NCBI GenBank assembly: GCA_030159075.1
Contig: BROG01000256.1
Coordinates: 165,001 to 229,000 of the forward strand
Reading direction: 5' to 3'
Length of the DNA stretch: 64,000 nt
Origin: Atrina japonica
Lineage: Eukaryota; Mollusca; Bivalvia; Pterioida; Pinnidae
Below the pieces are notes generated by a model. That model ran no database searches. It saw only the letters and a list, made by a program, of their open reading frames with translations, and was not told the origin of the DNA. Positions 4,496 to 64,000 of the stretch are shown piece after piece. Each line of letters starts with the position of its first letter. Positions within the stretch are counted from its first letter, which is position 1. The translations under genes were made by a program, and so were the position numbers.

Positions 4496-5784
4496 ACTTA
4501 GCGAAACAAAGTAATCGCAAACAAGGCTATTATACCGACCGTAAAATTTGCGGAACGGAGACATCAAACGCGGTTTTCGATATCTCTGTGTCAATAATAT
4601 GTCAGTGAGTAGTTTACCTCTATATATGAAATGTTCAAACATTTTATATACTGAGTTCATTGTGAAGTGAACCCTTAGTACAGATGCCCTCAAGTCGTAA
4701 TACATGTCGAGAATCGTGGGATTAGACATTTTCTAGTTGTTCAATTCCGGTTATTTTTTTGGTTTTGGTTTTTTTGTTTGTTTTGTTTTTGTTTTTTTTT
4801 GTGTAGTTTGGGGTACGTAACTTCCGGTTTTGTAATACATGTATTTACATTGGAAACATTTAATATACTTTTCAAGTTGTTTGAGAGGGAAAACGTTAAG
4901 CTAAATGTTCTTCCTTGCAACGATAACAAGTGTTGTGTTGACTCCTTCAGCTGTACGTAATGCCTATCCCTGGTGTTTTATACGATTAACTCCTTAACCG
5001 GAACTGATGAAGGTCACATTATTCCTTGAAGCTGCAGCTATTGTGACAGAGCCCGACTTTACAAAACAACTCGAAAAAGATGTATTCAGCAATTATAGAT
5101 AAACTATTTCTCAACGTTCAAAATCCTTGACGAGGCGTATTAAAACAATCAAACAAAATAAATTGTCTGCTGCTAAAGTGTGAGTATGCATTGCAAGATT
5201 CTGTCATCCTATGTTGCTGTGTTTGAGTTTTTGTTGTTCCCTTATTTTGCCCAAAGACTCAGCTTCTATACATGTTTCTTATCGCTTTTTCTATCGGGCA
5301 TTATGACAAACAAAGACAGCTGAGTTCATTGGTTCATAAGATTCCTAGACAGACAAGAATATATATCTAGTTTGATGTGCAGGTCAGCTTATAAAAAATT
5401 ATAGATTACGGTGGTCTGTAATCGTCTGCTCTTGTACTACACTCACGATTGCACGTGCTGGATTTTATATTCTTGGTGTTTTCAATAGATCAAGGCTGTC
5501 GATGTACATGAACAAGGTTTTCAGACGAAAATAGCAGAAACTCTATTATTCTCTTTTAACGAATTACTATATGTGTACTCTAAAAAAAACTAGACTGATC
5601 TATTCCGGTGTGTGCTAATGTATAAACGTATGAAATATAAATAAAACACTAGATAAAAAGAAAATGTTATTAATGAAGCAGTCAGTAGCTTCATAAACTC
5701 ACTCAGTCAATTAACTATCTAAACGTAGAGTTTTCTCGTCTGCTTGAATTTTCTCTCTAGCTACACAGTTTATTGAAGAGTTGC

Positions 5785-6022
5785 CTTTTCGTTGGCGGTT
5801 GTTGAGACGTCTGTACCAATTGTGACGAGGATACACTCCTCACGTATTTCATTGGACTTGACTGTGGACTCACGGCGGGTGTGACCGGTCGACAGAGGAT
5901 GCTTACTCCTCCATGGCACCTGATCCCACCTCTTGGTTTCCAGAGGTCCGTGTTTGTCCATTTTAACCGGATTTGTATCTATGTCCTGGGCATTCTATTG
6001 ATTTATACTTTGGTATCTGAGA
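5785..6022 (+). mobile_element. Dispersed element family F, copy 3
   Basis: Contains 'ttgttgagacgtctgtacca', 'gtgaccggtcgacag', 'gcttactcctccatggcacc' and ends in 'tttatactttggtatctg'. It aligns with copy 2 inverted and with the unique part of copy 1. About 238 bp; a second-strand partner of copy 2 about 1.3 kb away. Confidence 0.75.
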
Positions 6023-12090: not shown

Positions 12091-12672
12091 TCAAGATGTC
12101 CTTGATGATGTTAATTTCCTACGTAAAGACTTCCTTTGTCTCTGATCTCTTTGTCGTCTCTCTCGTCGTTGCTTCTTGCATCTCCTATATCGCCGAAGTA
12201 CATCCCAACAGTTCCGTTTGTGGAACAATCTAAAGTCTCTTAATGTGGCACTAAAGAAATTTTCAACAACATTTCTACAGAATTTTACATACGTCCGAGT
12301 TTCACCATTACGTGGTTTTACAAGTTCTGAACACTTCTTCCGTCGAGCTTTTTTGCATTTACTTTTTTGTAACACTCGGCTTGTGTCTTTACAAGTTTTG
12401 TTTAAATGACTTAATTCTTTAGAGGTATTCTCTACCATAAAAAGTGTATCGTTTTCGTAATATTCTCGTTCCCATTTTTTACTAATGGCTATAGCTTTAT
12501 TGTTGCAACCAAGCGCAATGTGGTACTTCCGGATCCGTTCTGTTGTTCTTGGACCATGTTTATGATGTCGATATTTTGTATAATAATATACTTCCGGTTC
12601 ATCTTTTGTTCCAGAGTTTCTATATTGAAATTTTTCTTCAAACCCGCAGTCATCTTCATTGAAATGTTTCAT
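12091..12672 (-). CDS. FGF-like gene, terminal coding exon 3
   Basis: This exon follows acceptor TTATTACAG|ATG and encodes the last 193 residues, ending at TGA (12093-12091). The first part, 'KHFNEDDCGFEEKF', matches the family C-x-F-x-E block. The following 'KHGPRTTERIRKYHIALG' region may correspond to the last trefoil strands in diverged form. The remaining tail is lysine/arginine-rich with clusters such as CKKARRKKC and QRRERRQRDQRQRK, suggesting heparin binding or a nuclear-localisation-like patch. That role is inference. I could not identify a convincing polyadenylation signal downstream. Confidence 0.8.
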   Translation of the reverse strand: MKHFNEDDCGFEEKFQYRNSGTKDEPEVYYYTKYRHHKHGPRTTERIRKYHIALGCNNKAIAISKKWEREYYENDTLFMVENTSKELSHLNKTCKDTSRVLQKSKCKKARRKKCSELVKPRNGETRTYVKFCRNVVENFFSATLRDFRLFHKRNCWDVLRRYRRCKKQRRERRQRDQRQRKSLRRKLTSSRTS

Positions 12673-12770
12673 CTGTAATAATTAAACAGACACAGTGAAT
12701 TAAAATTGGCTGATCCTATAATGCGTTGAAAGAGAGACGTCTTTGTGCACACATTAAGCATAAAAGCACA

Positions 12771-22702: not shown

Positions 22703-25700
22703 GGGAATCAATATCATAATACAATGTACATTTAAATGATTGGTATTTAACTCATCCTTTTTTAAAGACACATTTAGACTGAGCTATGTCATCAATGAGT
22801 GGTACTGGTAGAGTTCATTGGTTTTATTTTTTTTCAGGGGTAGATGCATTGACCCAGTTTCATAATATCTTTTTACACCAACAAGCCTATAGTTCGTGGA
22901 GACTTGACCTTGATCTGCAATAAGCTGTGAAAAATCTATATATCATGTCAAACAAAAAGTAAATATATTAACAACGACTGATATTTTCAGGGATAGAAAT
23001 TAGCAGGGGCCCAGTAGCCTATGACAAGTAAAAACTGAGCTGTGTTAATAGATTTCACAGTGTGTTAGCCCAGGTGGCTATTGAAAATTTGGGGGGGGTA
23101 TATATCTGGCACTTTCACAAATTTCAACTGATATTCTTGTAAACTGAGTATACCTTGGTACGGGTGTACATGTAGCTAGTGTTTGAACTAATCTAAAATA
23201 TGTTTTTGTAGCAAGATTTTTGTTAAAAAGATTTAAATAGCAATGTTTGAAACAAAAAAGGAAGAGCAAGTTTCTGAGCTTCCAGACATGCAACTTGGCT
23301 CCAAAAGATTACACATGGTATATTGTATGTGACATTTATATGATTGTAACATGCTGTGTCTAAAACATTTTTTGTGAGAAAGTTTGCCTGTTTACTTGCA
23401 GAAGGCCGGTGGTCTCTTCTTGGGCACATTCCAGGCTCCCTCCTCCATCATTAAAAAGTGGCCACCACCATATAACTAAAAAATTTTGGAGCAAATTCGA
23501 ATCAAATTATTACAGTGTGAATGTATCTATAGACAGACATTTTACATCTTTGTGTCTGATCTGAAATCTGGCACAACAACACCAACAACAGAATTAACAA
23601 AATGTCTATATGCACTCGGGTCTTTTTGGTCAATTTTGGGAAAATGTCATTGGTGATACCATTTGCAATTTTAACGTGAATTTGTGGTAAATTGGGAAAA
23701 ACTGTTTGCACCCATGGAAATCTGAATGTAACTGAATCTCTTTTTTAAATACATTTTACTTTACTTTAATTAATTTTTCTGTCCTGAACACCAAATTGGG
23801 AAGTTTTTTCATCAAATTAGGAAATTCGGCCTGGTGGAAAGTATAGAAAAAGGCCTTGCTCTTAAGTGTTTTGGTTTAAGAAAGGTCTGATTGTGATTTG
23901 AGCCCAACACTGAGCATTTTACAAAAGAAACATGGTTCCAATAGACCACAACAAGTGGCTTTAAGACATTATATCAATTTTACAAAACAAGCTTGCTACC
24001 AGTACAACTGACATAAAGCCCTTAATTTAACCGTACAGTACATTTCTGTACAAACTTTCTACCACTAATGACTATACCACCACAAGTGGCGTAAAGCCGT
24101 TATTTCAAGCTTACAATATGTACAAACTTTCTACCACTAATGACTATACCACCACAAGTGGCGTAAAGCCGTTATTTCAAGCTTACAATATGTACAAACT
24201 TTCTACCTCTAATGACTATACCATCACAAGTGGCGTAAAGCCGTTATTTCAAACTTACAATATGTACAAACTTTCTACCTCTAATGACTATACCACCACA
24301 AGTGGCATAAAGCTGTTATTTTAAACTTACAATATGTACAAACTTTCTACCTCTAATGACTATACCACCACAAGTGGCGTAAAGCCGTTATTTCAAACTT
24401 ACAATATGTACAGACTTTCTACCTCTAATGACTATACCATCACAAGTGGCGTAAAGCCGTTATTTCAAACGTACAATATGTACGAACTTTCTACCTCTAA
24501 TGACTATACCAGCACAAGTGGTGTAAAGCCACTATTTCATAGATAGTCGCTTTTCAGAGAATTATACAAGTGTTATAATTGTCGTAATCTATACACAGAA
24601 ATGGATAAATAATCATCTAATTAAATAAAGAAGAAAACAGTTTTTGGGAACTTTGTAAGAAGAGGATTTGAAAATGAAAATGACCTAAAAGTAATGGTAT
24701 GATTTGAATTAAGACACGATTAATTTGGTGAAAGTCAAGTGAACTTTGTTGAAGGTAATTCAAAAAAGTTTTATGCCAAAATCATTTGCGGTTTGATTTG
24801 GAGTAAAAATGGTTTGACTTGGAACGAAAGTTTCAAATACTTTAGATTCTGATGCGAGATATAAAGATTATATATATATATTTTTGACCGATTAATCTAA
24901 CATCAAAAGAAATATACTATGCAGCTACCCTGGGGCCGGTGGACAGTATCAAAAATTGATCTGATGTTAAGATACTTTAAAGAGATTATTAAAGTCAAAG
25001 AGGGTTTAGGTTTGATATGGATTAGAATGGCGTAAATACTCAAGTAAGGTGTTAAAATACGATTCTCAGTCGTTTTTTGTGATTACACATTGCATAAGCC
25101 GAACTTTAAAAGTTAGCATTTTAAAACGGCTTGATCATTCAAACATGCTAAAAAAATTTCATTCACAAGCATACATAATAGTCCTCAACGTTGATTCATT
25201 CAGAAATCTTTCTGTTGTCAAAGCCGACTGCTATCACATTTATCTACATATAACCTTCGATCATTAAGTCTTGTCAAGATAACAAGACACTGTTCAAAAG
25301 AAAAGTAGAAGGTTTTGCATTTTTTGCAAAATCTACCAATTTACCCATTAGTGCATTGAAGACTTGATATGTCCTTTCTTTTTTTTTTTCTTTTTTTTGA
25401 CATTTTTTTTTTTTTATCGTTTTGAGTGCTTATAAAAGTCCTCAAAGTTAGGTTTATGTATCGTATATATACATGTATGAAGATCTTGTATGCACAACTA
25501 GGACACACTAACTCCAACATGTAATAAAATATTGAATTGATAATTTTCTCTTTTTTGGATTTTATCAATTGAAGTGATTTAAAGATATGTTTAAGTACAG
25601 TTGTGTGTGTATGTATATATATAATGATAACATAAATAAACTTGTAGGAAGTCAGATGTTAAAATTTCGCTTGACAGGAAAACAAAATTTTGCACCATCA

Positions 25701-26340: not shown

Positions 26341-26373
<33 letters not shown>

Positions 26374-29300
26374 TTATTGAGACCTCAGAAAATCATGACA
26401 AAACATACTGTAACTATATGTTTCATAATTCTTTGGAAGGGATTTTTCTACCTCAAAATTCTGGGTCCAGGGTCCAAAAAATTGGGAAAATATACAAAGT
26501 TTTAACTAAAACAGAAAAAATCAGTTTGAGACATATTTGAAAATATTTAACTTTTTATTTTGAAATTCCAAATAGGGAATTTTTTCTAATTTTTGGGGGA
26601 AATTGTGAAAATACAGGCCATTTTTGCATAGGGAGTTTGTCCTGTAACCGGACCCCAAAACCACCTAGGAAAATCCCTGCTAGATAAATCTATATCTAGG
26701 TGAAAAGAATCATTCAATGGTTTACATAAAGAGCGATATAAATTTCATACATGTATCAAGCTCTTAGTGATATTACACAAAAATGATATACCTGTAGCGT
26801 TTAACAGTGGTGATAACTATCAACCATATTGGCTTTGTTGTAAAATTCTTGGCTCACAGTTCACATTTAGAAAAGTTAAACATTTATACTTTTAGATACC
26901 TCCAAAATTTATGTAGATAAAATGTATATGAGAAAGTTTGCGGGTTGAAAGTTTTTGTTATAATGTAAGTTTAGAGAGGGATTAAGAAAGTTTACACAGG
27001 GTTTATTTTAGACAAGGTTTTGCGCACTCATTGTATGTATCTTGCCTTACAAGACAGGAGTGTAATAAATGATAACCTGTCGATAACTGCTGATAAATTG
27101 ATGTTTGATCAACTGACCTAATTTTGATAATATGGACTGAAGCTTTTGATGTTGTACATGTACTTATTAAATGCCATTCATGAATTGGTGTATTAATTGT
27201 TATGCGCCTTTGTCATACTCACTATTATACAACAAGACCAATAGGTAGATGCAGTCTAGGTCTACATGTACAAAGTTTGATTTATTAACTGTTTTTCATT
27301 ATCTCAGCAACTATTAGGTCACCGTATTCTTTCAGATGACATATTGCAATTTGTTGACATCTGTCACTGTGCAGTATACATAACAGGTGGATGTGTACAG
27401 GTGTCATGCTGAAATTTAATTTTTTTTCTCAATTTTTTTTCAACAAACCCTGATCATGATTAGATTTTGGCTAGTGGCATCCATCCCTAAAGTAAACAGC
27501 AACAAAAAAAAAAACCAAAACAAAACAAAAAGAGGAGAAATTGGTATCTCATTAATGCCCTTTACAGAAAAGTTTGAAATCCAATTGTATACCAGATCTT
27601 TCATATTGTGAAAAAACATGACATCTGGGTCAAACAGTAAAATCTCGGATGACTTATGGGTCTTAGTATGACCTCTTCTTTTGTCAGGTGACTGTGGAGT
27701 CCCATAAGATCTCTTCTTTAATCAGGGGACTGTGGAGTCCCATATGACCTCTATTTTAGCCAGATGACCTTGTAGTCTTAAACTTAAAGCCAGAATTTAT
27801 GGAGGATGGAAATGTACATTTTACATATACCCAATAAAAGCCCACCAGCCCCTGAAACATGATCAAGGTCAAACTGTACATGACTAGAGGTCAGAGGTCA
27901 TATGGCTTAAAGTTTGAAGCCTCAGTAACTGGTACATAACCGCAATAACAACCATACAAATGTCACAAAATATATACCTATATACACATGCATATTGCAG
28001 AAATGTGATGCTCAGTTTCACTTACCTGTGTTACATTTGCACTACATGTACACATGTCTATTCATAATCGTACCTAGTCTATCTTCATGCATATTGAATT
28101 TCAAGAACAGAGCTAAAGAAAACCTTTTCCAAGAATTGCTTTCATTTTCAGTTTATGATATACATGTACATTTATGTAGTAAGTGCAAATACTGAAGGAG
28201 TGTAGCGTTGTTCCTATATCAAAAATGCCTACACGTTGTACATGTAGGTATATATAACCTGCAAATATAAGTTGTTAAAACTATGCCAAGGTAGTCACCC
28301 TTCATTATCAGTGCTTAAATCCTGGCTTACAAATCAAATGTCATTCTGCTTAGCTCACCTGTACAGGTAGCTCAGGTAAATGTTTTGTTTTTATTGTTAT
28401 TTCAAGTCAAGAATTTATTGACTTGTATGAAGTCAGTCACCTCTTTTCAGCATTGGTTTAAGCCCCACTGGAACCTAAGCTGATTTTGTGAGGAAATTTG
28501 CCAATTTACTTGTGAAAGGCCAGTGACCTCTTCCCGGGAACATTGTTACCAGGTTCTCTTCCCACCATTACAAAGTGGCTGCCATGATATAACTGGAAAT
28601 TTGTTGAGTGTGATTTAAAACACAATTCCAACCGATAAAAATACTGCACATTTTGATCTGTGCTATGGCTTGAGGTCAATACACCACAGTCAAGCCTGGT
28701 GACTTTGCAGAGCCTATCAAGACACAGACTAGTGACTTTCAGTTGTTGTGCCAAAGTTTTGGGAAATGAATATCCCATGCCGATGCTTATTTGGTCGTAG
28801 TTATGACCTGTATTACCTGTATTCCAACACAATACCTTGTGCTTGCATGACCAATGCTCTTCTACTTCATGTATAATACTGTGAGTGTTTCTATGTAAAA
28901 AATCTATGCGCGAAGCAGTATATGCCTTTGCCTCGGAAAATTCTAAATTGTTGATCATTTTCAAATTGTTTTATCCAAGCCATTAATTTCCTCAATCCTT
29001 TTAACTCACCAACCCCTGTGGTAACATTTAGACTCATCCACATCTATAAATAGTACAGTCTACTTTTATAAGCAGGTGTGAACAAGTTCATATTGCATGT
29101 AAAATTATTATAAAATTTTGAATCTAAATTATACAACCCTGAATTCTAACAGTGGACTTAACATTCTTTGAAATGGGCCGGTCCAAATGTGACTTCAGGG
29201 TTGGTACATGTAAGTTAACCAAAGAATAATTGTTTTAAGTTGCTAGAGAAATACATGTTTGGATCAGGTTAAAATAATTATTTTTTTATTTTTAAAAAAA

Positions 29301-29749: not shown

Positions 29750-30300
29750 AAGGATACATTGTAAAGTACATTTATAACACCTCACTAATCAGACCACTTG
29801 GAGTCAGTCAGTTAGGTGGTCTTAATAGTGAGGTTCCACTGTAACACCTCACTAATCAGACCGCTTTGAGTCAGTCAGTTAGGTGGTCTTAATAGTGAGG
29901 TTCCACTGTAACACCTCACTAATCAGACCGCTTTGAGTCAGTCAGTTAGGTGGTCTTAATAGCGAGGTTCCACTGTAACACCTCACTAATCAGACCACTT
30001 TGAGTCAGTCAGGTGGTCTTAATAGCGATGTTCCACTGTAACACCTCACTAATCAGACCACTTTGAGTCAGTCAGTTAGGTGGTCTTAATAGTGAGGTTC
30101 CACTGTAACACCTTACTAATCAGACCACTTTGAGTCAGTCAGATGGTCTTAATAACAATGTTCCACTGTAACACCTCACTAATCAGACCGCTTTGAGTCA
30201 GTCAGTTAGGTGGTCTTAATAGCTAGGTTCCACTGTAACACCACTAATCAGACCACTTTGAGTCAGTCAGGTGGTCTTAATAACAAGGTTCTACTGTATA
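29750..30300 (+). repeat. Tandem array of 63-67-bp hairpin units
   Basis: About eight units of 'taacacctcactaatcagac' ... 'ggtggtcttaatagtgagg' with 'ttccactg'. Within each unit the two halves are near-inverted (CCTCACTAATCAGACCAC against GTGGTCTTAATAGTGAGG), so each can fold alone. Some units lack 'ttag' (63 bp). The motif resembles TACAGT-ended MITEs elsewhere in the window. Confidence 0.9.
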
Positions 30301-32599
30301 CACATGTAATAGTGCTATTGTCATTACTTCAGTACAGTATACTTCTCAATCTTAATCTATACATATATATCCGTGTAAAGTTTTGAATAAAGTATTGTGA
30401 TCAGATAAGTTCAAGTTCATTTTGATGTTGGGAGTTGTGAGAATGGCATTGATACTCAAGTGCAAGCAAACACTTGAGTTCCTTTTCTAATCGATCTCTT
30501 TCTCTCCCTTCATTCTTTAGACCTTTGTCGTGTATTATGAATTGACCTCCCAGATATATACCAAAGATAGAAGTTACGTATTTTAAATATTCTTATATCG
30601 GTATGTGTATAAGCCAACTACAAAATGCCTTTGTATGTCTGTGTAGAAAATCTTTTGTACCAAAAAAACCTTTGGGTTGTGCTGACTCCAGTGTTCTTTC
30701 TTTGCTATGGAACAAGAAGTCAGGTTAAGGTTAAGTCTTACAGACAATTGATTGCATTCACAATGTCCTCGACTTTCTTCTATTTTTTTTTTTTTAAAAA
30801 GTTTCCTTTGATCTTTGGCTTGTTTTAAAAGTAGTATAACGGTGGGGGAAAATAATAACACATACACATATACATCCAAATACCTATGTTGCCTGTTTAG
30901 ATCTTTGTAACGGGATCTTCCATTAAGCTTCAAAACAGAGAGACCATTGTACGACTTAGAATAAAGATAATCCTTGCAACCCCAATCAGTGAGACTTAAG
31001 GAAGAAAAATGTATCAATGAACAATTATTGAATAGGCCACGACCTGTAACCATTTATTGAATGAATACATGAATTTTTTTGTAAGGTGTGTGGCTTTGAT
31101 TTTCTATGGTCACCGATTCTTCATTCATGATATTGAATAACGGGAAAAAAGTATACCGTAGTATTTAAAATACCTTGAAATTTCAGAGACTCATTCATTG
31201 CACAAGTTTTATTTGGTTCCATGCATGCAAAGACGTTTTTCATTGTTCAGAGCAAGCGTTCAATGAATGGCTAATTATGTTTTTTATACACTTCCCATGA
31301 TTTTCAGTCGTTTTAAAATTCAAATGAAGAAATTCATTCTCTGAGAATTTTTTCTCCCTATCGGCATAGATCTTATCAGGAAGATGATGTCAGTCTTTTA
31401 TCTTTTGGGAGATGACTTGATTAACTTTTCGATTATTGTGTTTGTCAATTCCCAAGCCCTTCGCATTAGTGCAGTCACACATGTATATATTATTTGTCTG
31501 GCTGAGTAATATCTGAAGTATTTCAACTTCAACCTTTTCAAGGTCATAGAGTAATTAATTTCAGACGACTTTAATTACTTTACTGGTCAGTGAGTGTTCA
31601 AAAATAAAAAGTATGTACATTTTCTGTAATATTGTTGTTTTACGTCTTGACAAGAATTAGATCTAGTATCTAGCAACAGGACATCAAAATGTTACAGGTT
31701 TTTTCCATATGTTTACTTTGATTTTGTTCATGTAGGTAGGGGCCTGGGACCGTATATTGATTCATCAATACTCATGCAATGCATGTTTTCACAGATCTAT
31801 ATGTTGTACAGTGAAATCATTTTTTCCTTTCTAAAATGTAGTTTTATAAAATACAGAAATGTATTATAGAAAAACAGAAATTGTTTTTGAAAAATCGACC
31901 CCAAGGATGCTTTCTCTTATGGTGGACTAACATATAGCTATCATGTATGTACATGTACCTGTAAGTTAATTTTGTAAAGATGTGGATTTTCTTCCTCTGG
32001 CAATTCCAGACTTAGCAATGTCCAAGACTTCTATCTCTGTTACTTGCCGACAAGATTGGGTCATGAGATATCTTGATGTTTGCTTCAGATGCAGACACTA
32101 TTAATGTGTCGTTTATCTGTTTTTCCGTTTATCTGTTTTTCTGTATAAAGATTAATTCTCCGGCAAACAAATTGTCCTGCCTCAAGATTGTGTCTCTCAT
32201 GCATCACTTTCCCTGCACAGCGAGTACAAACAATACCATCATATTTGCAATATAAATTTATGATAACAGAAACCTTGCAAGTATTGCTTAACTCAATGAT
32301 TCTATGCATTCTGATGTCGATTTTTCCTTTTGGTTGACAACTGATGTTTAGACGTAAGTTTATTAGATCATGTATAGATCTTTTTTATGTTTTATCAAAT
32401 TGCTGAATCTCCATCTAAAAAGAATATATTTGATTCGACACAAAATTTCTGTAAAGCAGAAATATGGCCACATGACACTTTTCTCATACAGTAATTGCTT
32501 TTACATTGTAGGACTCAGTCTGATTGTTTTTTTGGTTTTTTTTTTGTATCATTTTTTTTTTCATTCTTCCAAGAATATGAACTTCTATGGAAACGTCAT

Positions 32600-32957: not shown

Positions 32958-33262
32958 TTCATTGTGCATGCAATGCCAGTGATTTACACTGTGGTGGTCC
33001 CATTCATTGCGCATGCAATGCCAGTGATTTACACTGGCGGTCCCATTCATTGCGCATGCAATGCCAGTGATTTACACTGGCTGTCTCATTCATTGCGCAT
33101 GCAATGCCAGTGATTTACACTGGCTGTCTCATTCATTGCACATGCAATGCCAGTGATTTACACTGGCGGTCCCATTCATTGCGCATGCAATGCCAGTGAG
33201 TTACACTGTGGCAGTCCCATTCATTGCACATGCAATGCCAGTGATTTACACTGTGGTGGTCT
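32958..33262 (+). repeat. 43-45-bp tandem array, seven units
   Basis: 'cattgcgcatgcaatgccag' recurs at about 32960, 33001, 33044, 33087, 33130, 33173 and 33218. Each unit contains the near-palindrome 'cattgcgcatgcaatg'. Confidence 0.92.
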
Positions 33263-33784
33263 CTATCAGGTTTTATTTAGAGGATTTATATTTAACAAAG
33301 TGGTTTTCAAACTGTTTATTTTAAAGACTGGTGTTTCAGGTTTAGAAATTAAACTCAATCAAGGAGCTACCTGGGGTCATATGTCAGGATTTTTGGAGCC
33401 CAGTTGCATGTCTGGAAGCCCAGAAACTTGCTCTTCGTATAGGAGCAATTAACATTCTATTTAAAAATGTTTACTACATGTATGTAAACATATTTTACAG
33501 TAGTTTATACACTAGCTAGCAGGGTATTGTACTCAGCTTACAAGAATGTCAGTTGAAATTTGTGAAAGTGCAAGATTTATCCCCCACATTTTGAGTAGGT
33601 AGCCACCTGGGCTAACACACTGTGAAATCTACTACTCAACATGGGCTACTTGGCCCCTGGTTATTTCTATCCCTGTGGTCAGTCATGAGAGTGGACTTTC
33701 AAGACAGGTTCCATTGTAGAACATTGTATGCTGCATGCAAATTTTGCAGATTTTCAATTATTTAAATTAAAAGGTGGGATGTTG

Positions 33785-34030
33785 GACTCCATGGCTGAGA
33801 ATGGTTAGAGCAGTTCAATTTAAACCCTGAAGTCCCTCACGTCTGGTCAGTGCAGGTTTAAGCCTCGCTGGAACCTAAGCTGATTTTTGTGAGAAAGGTT
33901 ACCAGTTTACTTGCTGAAGGCAGGTGGTCTGTTATTGGAATCAGGTTATTGCCTCCACCAATAAAACTGGCTGCCAGTCATGCATATCACAAAATATTTG
34001 ATGAGTGTTTCACAAAACAAAATCAATAAA
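33785..34030 (+). mobile_element. SINE family A, near full length
   Basis: The head 'atggctgagaatggttagag' looks like a decayed tRNA A-box, followed by 'gtctggtcagtgcaggttta' (B-box-like), 'gctggaacctaagctgattt' and an A-rich tail with 'aatcaataaaaaa'. About 245 bp. Confidence 0.7.
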
Positions 34031-39858: not shown

Positions 39859-41174
39859 GTTCTGATGTGGTGATATCTACATTTGTACCACATTACGCTA
39901 GATATTTAGCACAGTGGTACCGTCTTTACAGCCTTATACATGACAACTATAAATATATTTCCAACAATAGTAGAGCGACCCTCTTTAAATACCGGTACTT
40001 ACAGAATACATGTATATGTTTGATTTTATTATCGTCTTGTATACAAATGTATGTATTTTATGTAAAGTCTAAGTTAGTCGCATTTTAGATTAATATACAT
40101 GTATTCAGACACTCCTAAGTTTGATTTTCACAGATGGACAAAATAGGATGGCCTTAAATATATAACCTAGGTGAGAAATAAAGGATTTAAGTACTGTTTC
40201 TCTAGGGAAGCTAAGCTACAATGTATAACACTTTGTTTTATTTTCTCCAACTTTTCGTATTTTTTCCAGTACTACAAATGTAAATTTGTTCGGAAAGTTT
40301 GTCGATGAAATACAAATTTCTACCATGAAACAGCATTACAGTCCTATAGTACACGTACACATGCCAATCAGTAACATGCACATACAGAATTTCTTTGTTA
40401 ACTGTCAAATTGTTTTGTTCGTTGTTTACCTATGTTCTGATCAAATGAAGAGTTCCAAAACGTGAGGTAAATGCTTCAGTGTTCACTCGGCACGTAGAAA
40501 TGAACAAAGAGCTGGGATATATTATTTATTTATGTATTTTGATATTATGCATGTCTATCGCCTTCACAGTGAGATGTAAAAGTTACCTGGCCGGTAAACT
40601 CAGTCTAAATTTTCTATCTACTTTGGCATACATCCAGTGTACTTATCATATAACAAGGTAATTTTAGCACACTTTGTAGGTGTACAATTCATGATAAACA
40701 AGCCACCCATATTCATCAAATCTTCATATTTTTCTTTTTTCTTATTTCTTTTTTTGTACAATGTAAATTGTTTTTTATGAGACTATGGACTATGTCTCCT
40801 ACTTTGAATTATGTCTCCTAGTAAAAAAAAAAAGATCACATACAGATACCTGTATTGACTTGATTTTCGGGTAGAATTATTTTTGTACCAAGTTGTAGTT
40901 TACTCGGTGTTGCCTGTTTTAAACAGATTTTGTTTTGTTAATGTACATGTAGTCAAGTGTATAACAAGTCTCAAGCCAGAGGAACAAAAAATGAGTCTGA
41001 AATGAAGCATATATACATGTACATGTGTGTTAATGCCTTACACTGCCAAAACTGGTTTAATTGATAGTGACTAACAGTAGTGTCATGTTAGAAAAGTTTA
41101 CTATTGACATATCTTGCTGTGCACCTCTACCCCCCAAATCTTCTGCCCTGAATTTTTTTGTTTTGAATTTCGAA

Positions 41175-41460
41175 TGATGTTTTAAGCCACACTTGACAAG
41201 TTTTCAGTCCTATGGTGGCAGCCTGTTTTTAATGGTGGAGGAGAGAACTTGGTTACATTGTACTCGGGAAGAGACCACCAGCCTACCTACCACAAGTAAA
41301 CTAACCAACTTTCTCTCCAAAAATCAGCTTCGGTTTCAGTAGGGCTCAAACTTGCACTGACCAGAAGTGAGAGACTTCATGGTACTTTGTTTATAGCGTG
41401 ATGATTTAACCACTCAGCCACAGAGTAGCGTGATGATTTAACCACTCAGCCACAGAGGCC
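41175..41460 (-). mobile_element. SINE family A, reverse copy with duplicated head
   Basis: Tail 'gttttaagccacacttgaca', body 'gaagagaccaccagcctac' and 'actgaccagaagtgagagac'. The head phrase 'tagcgtgatgatttaaccac' is present twice in tandem (about 41394-41457), i.e. a 32-bp duplication inside the tRNA-like part. Confidence 0.75.
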
Positions 41461-52965: not shown

Positions 52966-53699
52966 GCTCCCATGTAAGTCTGGTGCCACCACCCATGTAA
53001 GTCTGGTGCCACCACCTATATAATTCTGGGACATCACCCCTGTAAGTCTGGTGTGACAACCCATATACGTCTGATGCCACCACCTTTATAGGTCTGAGAC
53101 CACACTTATATAAGTCTGGGACACCACCCCTGTAAGTCTGGGACACTATCCATGTAAGGCTGGTGCTATCACCCATGTAAGACTGGGGCCACCACCTATT
53201 ATAAATCTGGGACACCACTTTTGTAAGTCTGGTGCCATCACCCATATAAGTCTGATGCCACCATCCATGTAAGTCTGGTGCCACTACCTATATATGTCTT
53301 GTGCCATCACCCATATAAGTCTGATGCCACCACCTATATAAGTCTGGTGCCACCAACTATATAAGTCTGGGACACCATCCATGTAAGTGACTGTGCTACC
53401 ACCCATGTAAGACTGGGCTCACCGCCTATTATAAATCTGGGACACCACTTATGTAAGTCTGGTGTCATCACCCATGTAAGTCTGATGCCACTATCCATGT
53501 AAGTCTGGTGCCACTAACCTATATATGTCTGGTGCCATCACCCATATAAGTCTGGTGCCACCACCTATATAGGTCTGGTGCCACCACCTATTATAAATCT
53601 GTGACACTACTTACATAAGTCTGATGTCACCACCCATGTTAGTCTGGTGCCACCACCTATATAAGTTTGGGACACCACCCATGTAAGTCTGGTGCCACC
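52966..53699 (+). repeat. 23-bp minisatellite, about 32 units
   Basis: 'gtaagtctggtgccaccacc' with variants ('tctgggacaccac', 'ctatata', 'cccatgt') repeats every 23 bp over about 735 bp. There is also a longer-period pattern: the order of variant units at about 53100-53340 resembles that at 53340-53560, suggesting a higher-order duplication. Confidence 0.93.
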
Positions 53700-58345: not shown

Positions 58346-58534
58346 GAGATTGTTGTGTGTGTTTTTTTAATAAAAAAATCTTCCAAAAATTCATTTATCA
58401 TTTCATTATTGACTTTTAAAAAAATTGGACTCTATTTAACACCAGTGGCATAGCCAATTCTTTTGTAATTGTGGTTTTTGTAGATAAGTTCACATAACCA
58501 TATCTATGAAAATCTATGTTGGCTAAGTACATGT

Positions 58535-58790
58535 ACACAGGGCCTCCATGGTCAAGTGTTAAGAGCATCACACTTTGAACCATGAAGTCTCTCACTTCTG
58601 GTCAGCACAGATTCAAGTCCTGCTGGAACCTAAGCATATTTTTGTGGGAAAGTTTGACAGTTTACTTGCGGAAGACCAATGTTCTTTTCCTGGGTACTCT
58701 GTAATCAGGTTCTCTCCTCCACCATTTAAAACCAACCACCACCATTTGACTGAAAAATTCTTGAGTGTGGCCTAAAACACTTTTCAAAAT
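58535..58790 (+). mobile_element. SINE family A, best-preserved copy
   Basis: Head 'ctccatggtcaagtgttaag' with 'agcatcacactttgaaccat', B-box-like 'cagcacagattcaagtcctg', then 'gctggaacctaagcat', 'gtttacttgcggaagac', 'ttctctcctccaccatttaa' and tail 'ttcttgagtgtggcctaaaa'. About 250 bp, the reference for this family in the window. Confidence 0.78.
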
Positions 58791-59224
58791 GAATAAGTTA
58801 AAATTTTAGGTTTTAGCTGCCAGCATTATATGAATATTGGTATGAGTCCATAATTATGTTTTTTTTATTTTTGGCCTTTCATCTTCAGTTTGTAAAATTT
58901 CCCTATGACTCAGATATTTGTAGGTCTGTTGTATTAAACAATAAAAAATATCTACAAATGTACATATATCATATCATGGCATATACAATGGAGAACCCAT
59001 AATAGGGAGCATAAAATGCGTCCATCAAATGTGCAAAGTGCATTTCATGTACATATACCCTATAATTACAGTGGGACAAGCCAGTGTCAATGACAATTAG
59101 TAGAATCCATTTTTTTTTAGGTTTGGGTGAGTTACATCACTATATAAGTTTTGTTAGTAATGAGTCAATATACATGTATGACCAAAGAGTTGAGGTGTAA
59201 GGACTTTGTCATAGAATGTACAAA

Positions 59225-59352: not shown

Positions 59353-60086
59353 TAATTATATGTATTTATATATTGGTATACATTGGAACATTTATATTGA
59401 GATAAATGTCTGTTGTGGGTCCTGGGTGTATGTATGTGTTGAAATAATGGTTGACTTGTTTCTGTTGATTTTTTAGTTAATAGCTATATACTTTATCATC
59501 GCCTTGACGATAATGAATAACAGTTCTTCTAGGTTCAGCTACCTTGATTGACTCAGAAAGTAATGGCGATCATATTTGGCATTTTTATGGCTCCTGGTAC
59601 ACCTACAACACTAAAACATCTCTGGTGTGGGGGTGGGTGTTCAGGACCTTGGTTTATCTATTAAATCATAAAATTGTATATGTGGTGAATTTTATCAAAT
59701 TTGTATACGGTAATTTTTTTTTTTCTGAAGGGAAGGTGGATGAAAAAGCATAGGGTTCATTTAAGTGCCTTTTTTTCTAAATTTGACAATCTGATATTTG
59801 GTACATTGATTAAATAGCTGAATATGATGGTAGGAATTGAGATAGTGAAATATTGGATAGTGGCTCTCTTTGTGGAATGCATTGGAGGTTAAATGAAAAA
59901 TATTGATAGTAAAAGTGCAAGATGTCTGCAGTGGTCATTACCTGTTTGTTCAGGAGCAGTATGACCTGCATATATTTAAAATAATCTACTGATCTTTTAT
60001 CAGTTTTGATAAAACATTCATACATATTATTTATTCATTATATATTTAAAAAAACATAATGCAGCTTATGATTGAATGATCTGTAT

Positions 60087-60135
60087 AGGCAGGTGCCCTT
60101 TATTCTGCAATGGTTGTTAATGCAAGTTTGTTAGA
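60087..60135. mobile_element. Element family E fragment
   Basis: 'ataggcaggtgccctttatt' and 'ggttgttaatgcaagttt', related to 21885 and 55832. Confidence 0.45.
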
Positions 60136-60840
60136 AAAAAAGTAAAGGAAACATCTATGTCATTTACATGTATATAATTTACATATATACTAACAAATTC
60201 AGAACCTTTACTTATATGTATACAAACATGATAATGAGTTTACAAGTAGAAAAAAATAGGTGGGTGTCCACTGTATTAACTACAACAATTTTACCACTGT
60301 ACCTTATAAAAAATTAACTGCCTCACGTTACATATCTTCTAAATGTACAATTTCTGTCGTATTAGTCAAAGAAAAATCTGAGTTAAATCAGATTAATGAT
60401 AAGATCTAAATTCATTTCAAGACAGATTATTGTTTTTAACATTTTTCTTGTATCGAGTATCATGTATTTGTGGAGAGTGATTCTCCATTTACCCTCGTCA
60501 CACAGAACACACATTGCACAAGAGCAGATGACACCCTGTCTTTGTCATAACAGCAGGAGAGTTTTATCTTACATACCTATACTGTATAGTATACAAAGTC
60601 TGTTTGCACAGATGCTAAACCCGAGATATTGCGCAATATTTGTACATTTTTGTGGCTTAATGTGTGATATCACTTTATTTGTATTTACTTCATTATATAC
60701 CTAAGTTTGTAAATAATCCGTCACCCCAGCCATCCCTTCAATTCCTCACTTATCACTTAAGTCGTTCACACCCCCTTCTTTCATTACATGGATAAGGGTG
60801 TTTGGAGTAAAAGTTAAGATGATAAAGAGATGATAAGAAC

Positions 60841-63650
60841 GCCCATCCACACACCACCACCCCCACCACAACACCCCAACACACACCAACCCCACCAACA
60901 CCCACACCGACCCCAACACCCCCCCCAAACACGAAAAAACAACCACAAAATCACCACTAACCACACCCCCAACCCTAAACAACACCCAAAACTCCACATC
61001 ACCCAACACCACCACAACCAACCACCACACAACCACCCCCACCTCAAACACACAAACACCCACCCCCCCCACCCACACACCACAATACCCCACAACCCAT
61101 ACACCCTCACATACACACTCATCACACAACAAACAACACCCCCACACACCACACACCCATACACACCACAACACACACCCCCAACACCAACCTCCACACA
61201 CCCACCAACCCCACACCACCAACAACACCCAAACCCCCAACCCACACAACAGCCCACACACCCACATCCCCCCCCACAACCCACCACAACCACCACCCAC
61301 CAACCTACACACCACCAACCCACCCACCACACACAACCCCACAAAACAACACAACCACCACATACAACCACCCACCACAACACCTCCTAACCACACAACC
61401 ACCCAAAAACACCACAACTCAAATCACAAACCAACCACCAAACAACACCCACCCAACAACCAAACAACCACCAAACCACCACACATTCCCCAACCTCCAA
61501 TCACACCACACCCCACCCACAACACCCACACCCAAACACCGCACGCAAACACAACACCCACAACCACCCCCTCACCACCCTACCACCCTACACCACACAA
61601 AAACCACCCCACCAACACCCCAACACACCCCCAAACCACAACAACACCCCCCCCACACAACCACACAATACACAAACTCACAACACAACCAACCCACATC
61701 AACCACAACCCAACACACACACACACCACCCCACACCCACAACACCACAGACCAAACAACCAACAACACAACATAACAACAGACCACCCAACACCCAAAC
61801 ACCCACACACCAAACACACCCAACACACCACCACCAAACAACAACACCCACCACAAAACCCACCCCACCACCAAGCAACAACACCCAACCACAACCCACA
61901 CACCCCCAACCACACCTCTCAACCCCCCACACCCCACCTCCCACCACCCCACCCAACCAACCACCAAACACCCACAAACCACAAACCGAACCTCCACAAC
62001 ACGACACAACCACCACAACAAACCCCACCACCACCACCTACAACCAGCACCCCCACAAAACCCCAACCAACCAACCTACCACAAACAACCCAAACCCACC
62101 ACCCAACACAGCAACCACCACCCCAACCACCCCAAAACACACACCACCTCACCAACCGAACAACGACCAACCCCGCAACCCACCACCCAAACACACCACA
62201 CACCCAAACACAACTACAATCCATACCACTCACAACCACGCAGCCCCACACAACACACACCCACACCACCAATGACCCCTCCACCACAACACAAAACACC
62301 ACTACACACAACAAACACCCACACCCAACCAAACCAAAACCCACCACCCAACAACCCACAACCCTACTACTCACCCCACAAACAACCACGAACTAACAAA
62401 CAACCGAACAACCCCAAAAACCACCACCAACACCAACACCCCACAAAAACCCCTACTAAAACCAACAACACCACCAACCACACGTACTTATCATGCTACC
62501 ACACAAAACACCCACAACCCCAACCACAAACACCAACCACAACACAACACACCCACACCCACCAAATCCCACCACACACCACCCCACCACCCCCTAACCA
62601 CACACCACACCACAACCACCAAACCCACAACAACACACAACACAACACCACCCACCAACACCACACCCACCCCCAACCACCCCCACACGCATACACCACA
62701 ACCACAAACACACCACAACCAAGCCACACACCCACACCACAAAACACCCCACCAACCTAAAAACACACAACACCCCAGACACACCACACACCCCCACCCC
62801 CCACCCACCCCACCCACACCCCACCCCACCACCAACCAACAGAACCCACACCAACACCCACAACCCTCACAACCAACCCAAACAAACACACCAACACACA
62901 CCCACCCCCAACCACATCCGCACGCCACACCCTCAAACACTACGACACACACACAATACACCGCACACAACACCCACACCCACCATCCACGACACAAACC
63001 GTCCCCCAACACCCAACCTACACATACAACCACACTACACAACCACACTCGCCTAACAACACAGACCATCCAACACCACCCCACCCATACAAACACCAAC
63101 ACACACCTCCACAAACCACACCAAACAACACCACCCCCCCACACACACCCACACAAACCTCCCCTACACATCACACACACAAACAACCACCCCCCACCCC
63201 ACCCCCACCCAAAACCACCCCACACAACAACCCCCCAACCACACCACAACACCCCCCTTACAAAACAGCACACACCCCACATCACACCACCACCCTACTC
63301 ACAGAAACACACCCAACACAACCCTCCCCACCACACCACCCACCGCCCTCCCAACAAACCACCCACCCCCACACAACACCCCAGAACACCCACCACCCCA
63401 ACAACAATCCCCCCCAACAACACAACCACACCAACCATACACCCACACCCCCGACAGAAATCCCCTCAGTCTCCCCCCCGCAAAATCGTCCCACAAAGTG
63501 ACCCAAAACAGTGATGCAACCAGAGATCACACACCATAAAAAAGACTTATCCAACCAACACACCCACATAAAAGACCCACCACCGACCCCCAGCCCACCC
63601 AATCCCAACCACCCCAACTCACCCAACCTACTTTACCCCCCCCCAACATT
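60841..63650. repeat. 2.8-kb tract composed almost only of A and C (plus strand)
   Basis: Each 60-base line has typically only zero to four G or T. It is not a clean tandem repeat: CA, CCA, CCCA and AACC motifs mix irregularly. The complementary strand is G/T only, which makes long stop-poor frames rich in Val, Gly, Cys and Trp; these are compositional artefacts. Edges: a C-rich, G-poor stretch (about 60718-60780) and a nearly C-free stretch (about 60782-60838) on the left; normal sequence resumes by about 63660, with a short mixed island at 63480-63560. It may be a degenerate satellite or a consensus/assembly error. Confidence 0.93.
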
Positions 63651-63659
63651 CCAACCCAG

Positions 63660-64000
63660 TGAACAGTGTTAGATAAAGGTGGAGAACCCAACCAATATCA
63701 CGCGCATGAAAAACTGGCCGAATCATTAGCATAAATCACTCTGGTCAGCTTTATTTTTCCTTTGATATCAGATTATCTTGTTTATATCTGATCGCTTTCA
63801 AGATGGTTATACCTATAGCTTGTGTTAGAGTTTAGATAGCCTGCATGCTTAGATCTATAAATTGCTTTTTGAATAGGAGTTTATTTGGCCAGAAACAGCC
63901 TATAAATCTATGTTATTGGGGTGTCTCTGTCCTTCTATGAATTTCCCTCAATGAAGTTAAGCTGTTATCACAACTTTCATTGATAAATATAAAGTACTGG
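63660..64000. other. Unremarkable AT-rich DNA at the window end
   Basis: No gene, repeat or site recognised. Confidence 0.5.

Follow-up and report, generated by a model that had tools for sequence, protein, structure and literature searches.

Spurious sequence arising from the reading process itself is on record for nanopore data. The relevant passage of one study classes 4.7% of the reads in Scrappie nanopore output, and 14% of the bases, as low-complexity (PMC5889714), an excerpt of another describes pore-specific noise reads (PMC5872496), and the corresponding section of a third links insertion errors to slow translocation (PMC8486125). The window analysed here, a 64-kb stretch of the Atrina japonica assembly (832 Mb, 2347 contigs), corresponds to contig C256:165001-229000 and contains a tract written almost exclusively in A and C. 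Judged from its sequence and from that of similar tracts elsewhere in the assembly, this tract is almost certainly long-read machine noise built into the assembly and not chromosomal DNA.

In a best-scoring-segment scan of the whole window, the tract is delimited to 2606 bases with an A+C content of 95.1% (C 1400, A 1079, T 89, G 38; C share of A+C 0.565), in agreement with the original prediction of a near-exclusive A/C tract. Its left edge is sharp, while the right edge is gradual with a mixed zone extending to about position 63700. The segment score amounts to 1717, against 54–89 for the top-scoring segments made of G/T, A/G or C/T in the window, and all runs of at least 40 A/C letters in the window are located inside the tract, so that a chance origin is excluded and the presence of the tract in the assembled sequence is confirmed. 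The tract and its surroundings are arranged as follows:

59500..60846, plus strand: ordinary left flank; around 60260-60330 it includes a short dispersed repeat (assembly search)
60847..63452, plus strand: A/C two-letter tract, most probably noise, aperiodic and nearly first-order random (segment scan, autocorrelation, Markov comparison)
63453..63700, plus strand: recovery zone of ordinary letters with excess A and C, fading to ordinary sequence
63629..64000, plus strand: ordinary right flank including the end of the recovery zone (assembly search)

The claim that the tract has no regular repeat unit is borne out by autocorrelation, which reaches -0.19 at lag 1 and 0.01 at lag 2, with the next largest of 399 lags at |z| 3.2, as well as by internal repeats at the level of Markov copies. 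The longest exact internal repeat comprises 19 bases, as against 17–24 in 60 first-order Markov copies and means of 19–20 for Markov orders 0 to 4. Tandem Repeats Finder returns many overlapping rows inside the tract with conflicting periods and 58–94% matches, and neither a tandem period of the kind a CA/CCA satellite would have nor a 3-base (codon) phase is found in the window tract. Twelve tract pieces from eight contigs, namely seven A/C or G/T and five A/T pieces, were tested for higher-order structure. A first-order model is nearly sufficient for them (largest G 8.8 with 2 degrees of freedom at order 2 and 10.3 with 4 at order 3), and their lag-1 correlation lies between -0.09 and -0.26 in all pieces except that from C241 (-0.02). 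The negative values may reflect under-calling of equal neighbours, as when a base-caller merges repeats. The window tract itself shows little structure beyond such short-range letter statistics. An island at 62484-62497 that looked like true sequence was discarded; within 58000-68000 only words of up to 8 letters from it recur. The opposite strand does carry the quadruplex motifs that had been suspected in its G-rich runs, but their number (9) does not exceed the 9.5 predicted from composition alone, and this G-quadruplex potential is a by-product of composition.

The window tract was used as a DNA query against its own assembly, with matches ranked by likeness to the query; the census was thus aimed at A/C-like tracts and not at A/T-only tracts or other letter pairs. 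Among the best 40 of 547 candidates, at least 65 matching places in at least 30 clusters are found, 15 on each strand, these counts being lower bounds. Classification by autocorrelation and extent covers 26 of the 30 clusters (all but C204, C290, C332 and C979, with C136 read only in part) and separates 18 aperiodic tracts, including that of the window, from eight periodic arrays:

Aperiodic tracts: C256 (the window's own), C37, C136, C83, C113, C544, C217, C31, C640, C241, C402, C992, C244, C45, C163, C88, C23, C380
Periodic arrays: C268, C1109, C758, C256:532679, C27, C295, C25, C206

Lag-2 autocorrelation is 0.38-0.94 in seven of the eight arrays; the eighth, C206, was by judgement called periodic at a value of only 0.17, with alternation that persists to lag 6. 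By the same kind of judgement C992 was called aperiodic, with a lag-2 value of 0.16 that decays after lag 2 and a segment that includes, at one of its ends, a brief (CA)n array, as was C244, whose autocorrelation is high because its letter ratio steps and not because of a period. The longest aperiodic tract among the matches listed is that of C37 with about 13.2 kb. The C content of these tracts (G on the other strand) ranges from 32% to 68%, and in one stepwise tract (L035 3401-9000) the composition changes from A/T to A/C of about 1:1, then to about 75% C and finally to about 70% A. Near one periodic A/C array a 479-base G/T segment with 89% G+T (L042 2189-2667) is located, the autocorrelation of which lies between that of noise and that of an array.

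Equal numbers on both strands are what one would expect from reads of either strand. No homology is seen between the tracts. Nine pieces are 67–69% identical to the window tract, and first-order simulations likewise reach 67–69%. Compared with 15 simulations, the bit scores of seven of these pieces (C217, C83, C544, C136, C402, C45 and C241) fall within the simulated range and those of two lie slightly above it (C37, 654 against 547–627; C113, 568 against 429–549), the scores being biased upward since most pieces were chosen as top matches. This type of tract is found again at sites that have nothing to do with one another, and its copies are not homologous. A mobile element was considered and rejected, as the comparison with simulated copies gives no common sequence beyond composition.

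Further order becomes apparent at the edges. When the tracts are oriented to read A/C, a random A/T tract is positioned directly 5′ of the A/C tract in 10 of the 15 edges seen:

With 5′ A/T lead: C217, C37, C113, C83, C544, C640, C45, C244, C31, C380
Without 5′ A/T lead: C256 (the window's own), C402, C241, C88, C163

The A+T content of the leads is 89-98% in the five pieces measured, and that of C544 is only about 150 bases long. On the 3′ side no A/T tract occurs in any of 13 edges (C256, C217, C37, C113, C83, C402, C640, C992, C88, C45, C23, C163 and C544); next to the C992 tract on that side lies a plain (CA)n(TA)n array. In ordinary sequence, only 0.2% of windows of 180 bases attain 88% A+T; of the ten leads, seven attain it over the 180 bases adjoining the edge. 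The values of C217 (86%), C380 (84%) and C31 (61%) are lower because the change is gradual there.

Seven tracts with both outer edges (C256, C45, C83, C163, C88, C402 and C544) were compared with respect to their flanks. In three of them ordinary flanking sequence is exactly duplicated, in direct orientation, around the noise:

C45, 116 bp: L033 2661-2776 and 8183-8298, both no more than about 15 bases away from the noise
C83, 68 bp: C83:760825-760892 and 770551-770618, adjoining the noise on both sides
C163, 17 bp: L041 3877-3893, adjoining the noise, and 5769-5785, separated from it by a recovery zone some 150 bases long

No such duplication was found at C88, C402 and C544, nor at the window tract, where the longest shared word is 9 (null maximum 10). 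The C163 noise contains a 54-bp exact copy of its left flank, and its recovery zone, in particular the end of it, repeats the flank with additional letters in between (score 60.3, null maximum 46.3). An uninterrupted reference for this tract is provided by a copy of a dispersed repeat inside the window:

58540..58796, minus strand: dispersed short repeat copy (flank comparison, alignment)

We take this repeat to be tRNA-derived and SINE-like; relatives of it are located near 33784-34019, 28427-28631 and 41167-41415 and at L009 5205-5383. Once the noise and recovery zone are removed together with one 17-bp copy, the joined C163 flanks align across the junction to all three dispersed-repeat copies compared, best to the window copy at 58500-58850, with a joined score equal to the sum of the halves. 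The repeat being continuous across the joined flanks in all three references, the C163 noise is an addition to intact sequence, interleaved in part with a second reading of that sequence. Insertion into intact local sequence is likewise indicated by the duplications at C45 and C83. At the window tract the recovery zone does not resemble the left flank significantly (31, null maximum 37; in a second scoring 37.2, with a null mean of 31.7, sd 5.1 and maximum 43.5), and at C88 the corresponding score is at or below the null mean. The assembly yields a further complete copy neither of the left flank 59500..60846 (best 40 of 1025 candidates) nor of the right flank (query 63629 to 64700, thus beyond the window end; only the self-match), which leaves the window tract with no empty site for comparison. 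The two 15-kb flanks of the tract, when compared with each other, contain dispersed repeats but none beside it.

The original prediction had listed long-read error among its explanations, and the tract set as a whole lends support to that kind of origin: statistics close to first order, recurrence on both strands, likeness at the simulated level in seven of nine pieces, the fixed order of A/T before A/C, the flank duplications and the re-reading of a flank. According to the mechanism proposed here, one or a few long single-molecule reads would stall or lose signal at the site, the stalled read would emit kilobases of near-random two-letter sequence, and the assembler or a gap-filling step would place this noise in the contig as an insertion. 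A stalled read is thus the presumed cause, a bridge by a single read or gap filling may have been the route past assembly, and the window tract presumably shares the origin of the other tracts, even though its own lack of an A/T lead and of a flank duplication speaks against an artefact. Unrelated, near-memoryless two-letter sequence in the order from A/T to A/C, with ratio steps in one tract and a re-read flank in another, is expected of a stalling reading device, and we know of no biological process with this outcome.

Nanopore sequencing is a first guess for the platform. However, perfect homopolymers of 29–36 bases have survived in the assembly (32 G at window 26341-26372 and 29 T in the window, 36 A in L032), which speaks against a plain early-nanopore consensus. 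As a sub-question of the same explanation, this class of artefact may have originated from PacBio reads, by spurious pulses during a polymerase pause; we consider this quite possible without favouring it. The long perfect homopolymers would agree with such an origin, whereas a second, equally oriented reading of the flank inside the noise would not be an obvious product of that chemistry and the literature search gave no precedent.

All readings of the tract as real DNA fare considerably worse. A degenerate CA/CCA satellite was another of the explanations put forward; this reading, taken here to include an expanded microsatellite and possible distortion through miscalling, would account for the two-letter content and has periodic arrays in the same genome (8 of 26 clusters) on its side. 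It is nevertheless very improbable, since the window tract has no period and no excess of internal repeats, its lag-2 value is far below that of seven of the eight arrays, and a satellite would neither carry random A/T tracts in a fixed order nor contain a re-read flank. Real untemplated DNA inserted at breaks, that is random two-letter filler with flank duplications, has a point in its favour in that an insertion between direct duplications of 17–116 bp resembles staggered-break repair. A reading process would account better for the 54-bp re-read and for the mixture of flank letters and noise, though, and in four of seven tracts the duplication was not found, which makes this reading highly unlikely as well. 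In its physical form it would call for a kilobase-long untemplated copolymer, A/T followed by A/C in a fixed direction, laid down at breaks with flank duplication by a novel polymerase activity, for which we see only the slightest chance; no polymerase is known to us to synthesise A/C-only DNA over kilobases in cells.

Scarcely conceivable, finally, is the proposal, in essence the third of the original explanations, that ordinary sequence underwent T to C and G to A changes (hypermutation or deamination) with its purine/pyrimidine pattern surviving: A/T and A/C tracts could both be such images of normal DNA, but recoding of about 122 kb on both strands gives no match above the controls (longest 32 letters, 27–34 in eight Markov copies), the lag-1 value of the recoded tract (-0.197) lies outside the -0.135 to 0.096 of ordinary 2.6-kb windows, its C share exceeds the ordinary pyrimidine share of 0.483-0.542, the letter ratio varies between tracts and steps in L035 unlike an image of ordinary DNA, and at C163 the noise adds sequence to an intact repeat instead of being a converted form of it. 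An S/W image of normal sequence was also tested and dropped.

As biology the window tract is most likely of no importance; it matters as a warning. Kilobases of noise apparently survive inside contigs of this assembly, where a composition filter would find them, and could pass for satellites or clusters of G-quadruplexes. Codons of A and C alone include no stop, so the tract leaves long open frames, up to 519 amino acids from stop to stop in the window, and with the tract as query E-values down to 1e-190 are obtained between unrelated places of the assembly. A Pfam search with four frames of the window gave no match, and the window contains an open frame of 196 amino acids at 12091-12681 on the minus strand that has no Pfam match. 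For COX1, a search of the assembly likewise gave no match. Immediately ahead of the window, L009 7501-10000 consists of 2500 N that run up to the base preceding it, probably withheld sequence. The window also harbors ordinary tandem arrays at 52969-53699 (23-bp unit), 24047-24539 (72-bp unit), 29775-30303 (67/130-bp unit) and 32958-33253 (43-bp unit).

Compared with known systems, the tract shares its almost exclusive A/C or G/T content with the CA-type microsatellites L039, L044 and L045, which belong to the same genome and are periodic and shorter than 1 kb, whereas the tract is aperiodic and extends over 2.6 kb. For the A/T-then-A/C form of noise the literature search yielded general precedents and no recognised description. 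As in the excerpts on Scrappie low-complexity output and nanopore noise reads (PMC5889714, PMC5872496), the Atrina tracts would represent spurious sequence from the reading process and not DNA. In those excerpts, however, such sequence occurs in raw reads and is filtered out, the noise reads of PMC5872496 having passed a complexity filter, while the Atrina tracts lie inside contigs. They further differ from these precedents, the relevant passages of which give no letter composition, by their order of A/T before A/C and, in some of them, by flank duplications.
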